Positions 8,814-11,312 of a DNA stretch of 11,312 nt are shown piece after piece. A model generated the notes under the pieces. The model had not been told where the DNA came from, ran no database searches, and was given only the letters and a program-made list of their open reading frames with translations. Numbering within the stretch: the stretch's first letter is position 1; each line of letters opens with the position of its first letter. Source of the stretch: an uncultured Pseudomonadota bacterium (GTDB lineage: Bacteria; Pseudomonadota; Gammaproteobacteria; Burkholderiales; Burkholderiaceae_C). The DNA is taken from the NCBI GenBank assembly GCA_900320815.1, contig ONTY01000011.1:1-11312 (forward strand), in the 5' to 3' direction. Position numbers and translations under genes: made by a program.

Positions 8814-8907
8814 AAAGCGCGGCGGGGCGGGGGGAATGGATGTTGTGCTGGAAGCAACGCGCCTTGAACCAGTCCATTTTTCTTGTGCGGTGGGTATCAT
8901 GTGGTCA

Positions 8908-9013
8908 CCGGCTTATGAAGCCGGCAGGCAGATGGGTGAATGATGTGTATCAAGACATCATGCAATACCCTTGCAGAATACCTATTCATCACCGGCTTCA
9001 TACGCCGGTGATG
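8908..9013. repeat. Cluster of three hairpins with CCGGCTT cores
   Basis: Three separate stem-loops follow each other: CCGGCTT-ATG-AAGCCGG (8908-8924), ATGATGT-N8-ACATCAT (8940-8961) and CATCACCGGC-N7-GCCGGTGATG (8987-9013, a perfect 10-bp stem). The first and third share an ACCGGCTT half and similar loops, suggesting related units around a middle hairpin. They resemble REP/BIME-type extragenic palindromes. None is followed by a T-tract, so they are not ordinary terminators. Confidence 0.6.
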
Positions 9014-9091: not shown

Positions 9092-9097
9092 TATACT
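9092..9097 (+). promoter_or_regulatory. Possible -10 box of the surface-protein gene
   Basis: TATACT (5/6 to consensus) lies 53 bases before the ATG at 9151. The hexamer 17 bases upstream (TCGCAA) is only a weak -35 match. It is the best candidate in the gap, but it rests on one box. Confidence 0.3.
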
Positions 9098-9150
9098 CCC
9101 GCGCCACGTCGCCTGCACGGGCATTCCATTCACATTTTCCCGAGGGTTTC

Positions 9151-11312
9151 ATGAATACAGCTTCCTATACTCCCCCCCCAGCATACCCGGCGGGTTGAGG
9201 CGCTGAGGCGCGCGCTGCCCGTCACGCTGCTGGCGGCGCCGGCGGCGTGGGCGGACAGCGGCGGGATGACCGGGCGCGGCTGGTTTGGCGACGGGTATAT
9301 CGGCTGGGATACCGTCAATGACATGCCCCGTGGCTCAAACAACACCGTCGTCGTCACCAACAGCTACCCTTTCGCCTACGGCGGCTTTTCCGACGGCGAC
9401 GCTCGCGACACGAGATGGATTGACACTTCCGGCATCGCCTCCGGCAACACGCTGACCATTACAGAAAGCGTCAGCGGAGTGATGGGTCCCACAGGGGGCG
9501 GGGCCCGGGGCAGCAATGCCACCGTCTCAAACAACACCCTTTTCATCCGTGGCAATCTGCTTGGAAACGGCGTGGGGGGAGAGAACGAGGGCACCGGGCC
9601 TGTCACGGGCAATCGCGTGCATCTTCAGGCTGGCAGCGTATTTGCGTTGTACGGTGGCCTCGCCAATAACGGCAACGCCACGGGCAACAGCGTCCTCGTC
9701 ACCGGCGGCGAAGTGTTCCGGGTCTTCGAATGCCGTGTGTATGGCGGCTTCACCAGGAAGGGCAACGCCTCGGGCAACAAAGTCACCATTGCCGGCGGCA
9801 AACTGGGGCAGCCGGGGTCTGCTACCTGGGGCGCCAATATGTGCTATGTGTTTGGCGGCCTCACCGTGGACGGCGTCGCCACGCACAACACCGTCACCCT
9901 CACCGGCGGCGAGATTATTGGCGGGGTGCTCGGCGGCCACACCGAAAAAAAAGGGGATGCCGTCACCGGCAACACGCTGAATGTGCAGGCCAAGGGCGTG
10001 GTTGTGCAGGCAGACGCGCGGAATCACGGTGGCGACGTGAAAAATTTTGATGCCGTCAATTTCACGCTGCCCGCCGACTTTGACCCCGCCAAGGACGAGA
10101 TGCTGAGAGTCGGCGGCACTGCCTACTTCGCCAAGGGCACCAAGATTGGCATTGACTTCTCCCAACATCCGGGGAAGGTGAAAAAGGGCGACGAAATCGT
10201 GCTCATCCGAGCCTGGGGCACCATTGAACCCGAGGACGTAACGGAACTGACGCTCACAGAACCCGCCGCCCAGTACTTCCGCCTGGAAAGGCGAGAGCCC
10301 CCAGGCGATTATGGATACGCCTACCTCATCGCCCACGTCCTCAAGGTGCCGGGGGAGAGCTACGCCATCATGGGCACCAGCTCCACCGGCGGCGAGGTGG
10401 ACTGCGACCCCACCGTGATAGACCGGGACATAGGCGCCGCCCGCTGCCGCGCCGTCCCCAAGGCGGGCTACACCTATGTGGAAGGCAGCATGGCGCTGCA
10501 GCCCAACGGGGTATCGACGGCCACGTTCAAGGACTGCGAGCGCCCGGCCGACCTGCCCCTGGGTGGCGAGTGCACGATGACGAATGCCAGGTCGAATGTC
10601 GCCAATCCCTTCCTCTATGTGACCGCCCAGTTCGCGCCCAAGCCAACGCCAAGCTACAAGGTGACGGCCACGGTCAACGGCGCGGGCGGCACCTTGACGT
10701 GCACACCCACCACCGTGCAGCAGGGCAGCGGCACCATGTGCACCGCCACGCCCGATGCGGGGTACCGGCTGGCCGCCTGGGGCGACGCGGGCAGCGGCTG
10801 CAGCAGCGACCGCGACTGGTGCGGCGTCTACGGCATCACCAGCGATGTGAATGTGAGCGCCACGTTTGCGAAGCGCACATACACCGTCACGGGCACCACC
10901 AGCGGCACGGGCGGCAGCGTGACGTGCACGCCCGCCAAGGTGGAGCACGGCGGCGAGGCAACGTGCACCACCCACCCCGAGGCGGGGTATGTGGGCACGC
11001 TGTCCGGCCACGGCTGCAGCGGCGCAAGCTGCGTGCTGACGAACATCAGCAGCAATGTGACGGTGGTGGGGACGTTTACTGATATGCCGTGGTACGACGT
11101 GCGCGCCGTCAGCAGCAGCGGCGGCACGGTGACGTGCACGCCCGCCAGAGTGCAGCACGGCGGCTCCGCCGTGTGCAACGCCAAGCCCGATGCGGGCTAT
11201 GAGGGCGCCCTCTCAGGCGGCGGCTGCAGCGGCGGCACAAGCTGCTCCCTGGTGGACATCACCAGCGATGTGACGGTGACGGGCGCCTTCAAGAAGAAGG
11301 TGTACAAGGTCA
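9151..11312 (+). CDS. Secreted/surface protein with beta-solenoid-like head and InlB-like repeats; start out of frame at a C8 tract (probable phase-OFF), 3' end outside window
   Basis: The start is supported by GAGGG five bases before ATG 9151. From there the frame runs into eight Cs and stops at TGA 9196-9198 (MNTASYTPPPAYPAG). The +1-shifted frame is open from 9155 to the window end but has no ATG, GTG or TTG until ATG 9266. Removing one C joins them. The precursor then starts MNTASYTPPQHTRR and has an Arg-rich n-region, the hydrophobic core ALPVTLLAAPAA and an AWA cleavage site after residue 34. Next comes a Gly/Asn/Thr-rich region (about 9440-9993) with recurring YGG and GNxVxxxGG units, as in bacterial adhesins and autotransporter passengers. 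A globular linker follows (about 10020-10360), then tandem InlB B-repeat-like modules to the end. No membrane anchor or beta-barrel is visible because the gene is cut. Function is unknown; an adhesin or surface role is inferred. If the C8 is real, the copy is not expressed as a secreted protein. Confidence 0.75.
9172..9179 (+). repeat. C8 homopolymer, candidate slipped-strand phase-variation tract
   Basis: Eight consecutive Cs lie at codons 8-10 of the surface-protein gene, between the start codon and the signal peptide. The gene is in frame when the tract has 3n+1 Cs (7 or 10) and out of frame at the observed 8, or at 9. It is the longest single-base run inside a start-proximal coding region of this window. 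Confidence 0.8.
10361..11312 (+). repeat. Tandem InlB B-repeat-like modules with four conserved cysteines each
   Basis: Modules begin at 10361 (degenerate, about 98 codons), 10655 (75 codons), 10880 (71) and 11093 (70); a fifth starts at 11303 (YKV) and is cut. The typical order is Y-x-V, GGxVTCTP, HGG, a second Cys, PDAGY, GCSG, SC, ITSDVTVTGAF. This matches the divergent InlB B-repeat family found in secreted proteins, but every copy here carries four cysteines at equivalent places. The third and fourth copies are also very similar in DNA (shared GTGACGTGCACGCCCGCC), indicating recent duplication or gene conversion. Confidence 0.8.

Follow-up and report, generated by a model that had tools for sequence, protein, structure and literature searches.

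The stretch of DNA analysed here (the window, 11,312 nt in length) is contig C173 of genome G000, a metagenome-assembled genome (MAG) of the genus Ottowia (2.1 Mb in 339 contigs, 81 % complete). Towards its 3′ end lies the start of a gene for a predicted secreted protein, with a run of eight cytosines (C8) placed between the ATG and the signal peptide that is a candidate slipped-strand switch (Table 1). The tract begins 18 nt after the ATG codon at 9151 and is a non-triplet repeat situated inside the frame and near its start. Translation from this ATG gives MNTASYTPPPAYPAG followed by TGA, whereas the post-tract frame, which opens at 9155, encodes HTRRVEALRRALPVTLLAAPAAWADSGG directly behind C8. 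The first-pass annotation had described a ribosome-binding site, an ATG, C8 and a stop after 15 codons, together with an adjacent frame that carries a signal peptide behind the tract and stays open for a long distance; the sequence bears out both descriptions, and the adjacent frame remains open for 710 codons, up to the contig end. Its arithmetic also holds, in that the two frames differ by 1 (mod 3) and a tract of 7 or 10 Cs would restore one continuous frame. Tract length thus determines the reading frame of the gene, which is otherwise intact and the C-terminus of which lies beyond the contig end. As ATG, GTG and TTG are all absent from the post-tract frame before 9266, no ordinary start would take in the signal peptide (signal peptides were called by eye throughout), and we rejected an alternative start in this frame. 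The anatomy of leader, tract and frames is therefore confirmed for the window, and the gene is OFF in the assembled sequence.

A paralogous family was found in G027, a MAG of a sister Ottowia species (2.0 Mb, 97 % complete). When 60 genomes, among them that of the window, were searched, G027 gave 26 matches; the family profile gave 59. These matches are pieces, of which there are several per gene. The window frame matched the family profile with an E value of 4.7e-156 (the window itself is among the profile's nine rows), and the leaders are alike, reading MNTASYTPPP in the window and MNKASHTxLPPP in the G027 paralogs. Many paralogs carry GGAG, GAGG or AAGG at about the position of the Shine–Dalgarno-like motif of the window, and a TTGCCTATACT block resembling the TATACT of the window lies upstream of the paralog on contig C157.

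We judged 22 leaders, including that of the window and leaving out those of G027:C106, C155, C186 and C195, of G000:C264 and of the family match of G000:C2. Tracts of C7 to C13 stand between the ATG and the signal peptide in 11 leaders (the window plus ten from G027, one of which, on C136, is a looser member whose leucine-rich-repeat product has PF18998 and shares the C-terminal motif), and all 11 place the ATG out of frame, seven by one offset and four by the other. Three further paralogs carry tandem arrays of a 10-bp unit, CCGGCATTAT, or of an 8-bp unit, ATTCCGGC, in the leader instead. With one mismatch allowed, a tandem pair of the 10-bp unit is confined in G027 to two sites, each a family leader, and is absent from seven further genomes of the genus, including that of the window. 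The leader on C70 is of the same kind as the two with 10-bp arrays and has the unit in a single copy, which suggests how such an array may arise. All eight repeat-free leaders (longest C run, 5) are in frame, so that the ATG is out of frame in 13 of the 14 repeat-bearing leaders versus 0 of 8 repeat-free ones (Fisher P 2.8e-5, not a strict probability because the compared genes are related).

Table 1. Features of the window locus (positions within the window) and repeat state of the family leaders
Feature	Position or contig	Strand	Basis or copy number	Frame of leader
Possible -10 element TATACT, promoter function putative	9092..9097	+	sequence only	
Shine–Dalgarno-like GAGGG	9142..9146	+	by eye	
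Short open reading frame from ATG, 15 codons and TGA (OFF product)	9151..9198	+	translation	
C8 homopolymer tract, proposed switch	9172..9179	+	sequence; paralogs with C7–C13 at same place	
Signal peptide HTRRVEALRRALPVTLLAAPAAWA, post-tract frame	9182..9253	+	by eye; aligned with family leaders	
Post-tract open frame, 710 codons, reaching contig end; secreted protein (predicted)	9182..11311	+	translation, family alignment and profile	
Predicted beta-helix passenger, residues about 30–390 of post-tract frame	9269..10351	+	VIA-align 2, model, repeat pattern	
InlB-type repeat stalk, approximate limits	10352..11290	+	PF18998, Pfam E 1.3e-19	
Tract C8	window gene			out of frame
Tract C7	G027 contigs C36, C94, C198			out of frame
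Tract C10	G027 contigs C122, C136, C143, C163			out of frame
Tract C11	G027 contigs C76, C130			out of frame
Tract C13	G027 contig C14			out of frame
10-bp array directly after ATG	G027:C29, L067 2591-2698		TRF 10.8 copies	out of frame
10-bp array directly after ATG	G027:C135, L070 2343-2432		TRF 9.0 copies	out of frame
8-bp array at same leader place	G027:C50, L064 3481-3515		4.4 copies	in frame
Repeat-free leaders	G027 C61, C157, C143 second gene, C127, C117, C208, C70, C125			in frame

The placement of long runs in G027 points in the same direction. Eight of its 12 runs of at least ten Cs (13 runs if one at a contig end is counted) are located downstream of an ATG, at a distance of up to about 30 nt, and ahead of a signal peptide, a placement with P about 3e-11 if 2000 genes and a 45-nt target are assumed. 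Counts of C10 in other Ottowia genomes were dropped as a sign of genus-wide switching, as the runs listed for G008, G028 and G007, many of them at contig ends, look like assembly artefacts. Among loci of other species, runs of at least 7 were present in five, L040, L053 and L160 (one G022 place) and L043 and L056 (G006), in a survey that counted runs irrespective of start-codon position, starts being visible in some loci only. Two secreted-looking genes unrelated to the family have the same arrangement of ATG, C tract and signal peptide and are in frame: one on G000:C2 with C9 (L095 3912-3920; alpha/beta-hydrolase matches below the Pfam cut-off) and one on G027:C89 with C13 (L129 4566-4578; ankyrin repeats). 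A further switch candidate is an acyltransferase-3 gene (PF01757) on G000:C57, which has a C10 shortly upstream (L091 1415-1424); the ATGs upstream are out of frame with the gene, and its start is ambiguous.

A direct objection is that assembly or sequencing has miscounted the window tract, which would in truth be in frame, with the gene simply ON. Homopolymers are prone to error, G000 is a fragmented MAG in which a one-base error is possible, and trouble with such runs is visible on its contig C325, where G17 and G18 flank an N gap (L088 3872-3925; assembly trouble or an artefact at poly-G). However, tract length also varies at this position among ten paralogs in a separate assembly, G027, and repeat-free leaders are consistently in frame; moreover, a miscall in the window would alter only its reported state and leave the switch in place. 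We consider this explanation unlikely.

One paralog is represented in both states. When the leader of P0124, an in-frame family member (MNKASHTILPPP leader), was used as query, the predicted metagenomic protein P0133 emerged. Its sequence begins MQKVSYTLPPPPVHV and matches the translated post-tract frame of G027:C76 at 672 of 672 residues. The C11 tract of C76 leaves its ATG frame to end early (OFF), whereas its twin P0133 is in frame (ON). Given this match, the two tracts should differ by a frame-changing number of bases, and the four prolines in the P0133 leader are consistent with a difference of one base. In two other proteins, P0130 and P0131, translation begins farther upstream and runs into the same leader in a frame other than the MNKAS frame; their tracts are read as being of the OFF type. 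For the window gene, no second allele was present among the 120 listed of 149 matches (5.8 billion proteins, 8000 candidates scored), and the listed matches were 27–41 % identical over 15–51 % of the query. No named relatives of the window gene were found in genome contigs with the window protein or P0124 as query.

The product of the post-tract frame is probably exported by the Sec pathway and anchored via a C-terminal IPTL-CTERM signal by the exosortase XrtH. For its passenger a beta-helix is predicted; a search by Foldseek alone returned no PDB structure at E <= 0.001. In the stalk behind it, PF18998 (divergent InlB B-repeats) scored 70.4 bits (gathering threshold, 23.6) in three stretches, the best at 10664-10873. 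The IPTL_CTERM model (TIGR04174) matched a family fragment on G000:C264 (23.4 bits, cut-off 20.5), and a GE-GLLLSG signal occurs in 15 of the 18 family frames examined; the window protein would be expected to carry such a signal too. XrtH is encoded in the window genome (G000:C302, 176.7 bits, cut-off 86; cut at the contig end), and 25 of the 29 genomes surveyed in the genus, among them G000, have an XrtH match above the cut-off. As to an autotransporter barrel (PF03797), a scan of P0124 and the precomputed domains of P0133 gave PF18998 only; among the 120 passenger relatives listed from other bacteria, 19 do carry the barrel. The mature protein would be expected at the cell surface.

The best explanation for these data, which we hold to be highly probable, is that C8 is the slipped-strand switch of a gene belonging to an exosortase-sorted surface protein family. 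The first-pass annotation had proposed a poly-C switch for this gene, and the proposal gains support from the C7–C13 leaders of the sister species, the ON/OFF pair of C76 and the two other repeat types. Replication slippage in the C run would lengthen or shorten the tract by single bases, and so connect the ATG to, or disconnect it from, the reading frame of the signal peptide and of the beta-helix/InlB-repeat protein of 710 codons or more. As the tract lies ahead of the signal peptide, the entire product would be switched on or off at once. Each family member would be switched independently, so that a population displays varying subsets, and the probable benefit is a variable surface in the face of immune, phage or niche pressure.

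Several points weigh against this interpretation. C8 is short, and runs that long are expected by chance in G000: we counted 32 C or G runs of at least 8 against about 26.5 expected from local composition (an expectation fitted on contigs partly picked for carrying runs), and the rarity of such runs was rejected as support. Because C8 length alone is expected by chance, support for a switch must come from position and relatives, and it is from these that we infer switching of the window tract itself. The P0133/C76 pair rests on a predicted protein sequence, not on DNA, and its two members differ at one residue before the tract (the fourth). P0124 and L132 show PTMGE[LV]GLLLSG by eye and did not match TIGR04174. 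The G027:C122 gene has an in-frame ATG 14 nt upstream, albeit without an obvious Shine–Dalgarno motif. Finally, the preponderance of OFF leaders departs from an expectation of one third ON (P 0.027), and part of the family could be decaying. The count becomes 13 of 16 OFF (P 0.17) once the two in-frame genes from outside the family are added, and a bias toward OFF is suggestive only.

The same preponderance would fit a fixed pseudogene, in which the frame was lost once, the gene is decaying and the tract is incidental, and relatives with further lesions can be pointed to: G027:C163 loses its frame again soon after the signal peptide, and G027:C61 carries an internal stop. In the window gene, however, downstream disabling mutations, which the first-pass annotation had named as grounds for abandoning a switch, were looked for and none was present in the visible 710 codons, which align with the family. 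Frame breaks in the leaders coincide with repeats, and C76 has an in-frame natural twin. A fixed pseudogene is accordingly quite improbable in our judgement.

A third possibility leaves the DNA unchanged. C runs can slip during transcription, and slippage in transcription or translation would let an OFF template yield some full-length protein, in keeping with the observation that OFF templates make up most of the family and that the majority of templates nonetheless look intact behind the leader. A single frameshift signal would not serve both of the offsets found among the paralogs (seven versus four), however; in three paralogs the C run is replaced by 10-bp or 8-bp arrays, and the two members of the C76 pair are in different frames in their respective genomes. 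This renders such slippage very unlikely. A programmed frameshift was likewise thought unlikely, as the frame displacement among paralogs goes in both directions and some of them contain other repeat units.

The leaders may also be mobile relative to the proteins behind them. Among eight tract-bearing G027 paralogs, leader DNA is 72 % identical on average, versus 48 % over the 500 bases of mature-part sequence that follow, and P0128 and P0131 share 204 of 213 passenger residues from the mature N-terminus onwards behind different leaders. Both patterns are compatible with leader exchange; for the former, shared descent with faster change of the passengers is an alternative explanation. We put forward, tentatively and as the less probable outcome, that this Ottowia lineage has a combinatorial surface display of about two dozen proteins sorted by exosortase, that many of these possess an individual leader switch consisting of one of three repeat types, and that the leader (promoter, start, repeat and signal peptide) is an exchangeable cassette shuffled or gene-converted between unlike passengers. 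If so, both the set of proteins displayed and the passenger behind each switch could change.

Slipped-strand phase variation is a textbook mechanism. The opa genes of Neisseria, which encode integral outer-membrane barrels, form a set of paralogs, each under separate control of a leader repeat of CTCTT pentamers; the likeness lies in the individually switched paralogs, whereas the present family combines three repeat types and belongs to another lineage. Bordetella has poly-C switches at the fim promoters, where the tract acts in the promoter, and in bvgS and tcfA. Poly-C and membership of the Burkholderiales are common to both, but the gene types differ, and we know of no shared leader family for the Bordetella switches. 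The closest described design is that of the autotransporter AutB of Neisseria meningitidis: AutA and AutB are large surface proteins whose frame is switched by slippage at AAGC tetranucleotides, and in AutB the repeats follow immediately after the start codon and are strongly skewed to OFF (PMC5118866). These are type V autotransporters, in contrast to the poly-C tracts, the 10-bp and 8-bp arrays of some paralogs and the IPTL-CTERM/XrtH-type family described here. Listeria inlA also has a 5′ homopolymer in a surface-protein gene, the frameshift giving a very short product, and poly(A) and poly(T) are reported as the tracts enriched at gene starts (PMC2831843); the 5′ homopolymer and short frameshift product are alike, but inlA is a single Gram-positive gene with poly(A).

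The lineage, the exosortase-linked family and the co-occurrence, within one family, of three types of repeat at the same leader position appear to be new. A literature search, with subscription papers mostly outside its reach, found no paper combining Ottowia with phase variation and none joining Comamonadaceae, the family that contains Ottowia, with homopolymeric tracts and phase variation. If the switch holds, exosortase-sorted proteins, a large and poorly understood class, would be added to the surface proteins that repeats control, and the coexistence of three repeat types at one leader position would offer a natural test bed for the origin and upkeep of repeat switches. The family also shows how gene callers misread switchable genes: the NCBI protein P0121 of G027:C14 (99.8 % identical to L071) begins inside the protein, after the leader.

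Additional runs and repeats were observed in and around the family genes. G027:C14 has, beside the C13 after its ATG, a second C10 upstream of the Shine–Dalgarno motif (L071 3662-3671), which might affect transcription or translation. The gene on G027:C125, which has a repeat-free leader, undergoes a frame shift at a G9 run in mid-gene (L075 3563-3571). In the window, palindromic TCACCGGCTT...GCCGG repeats occupy 8905-9013, between a phasin-like gene (by eye) and the switch, and similar palindromes lie upstream of two G027 family genes.
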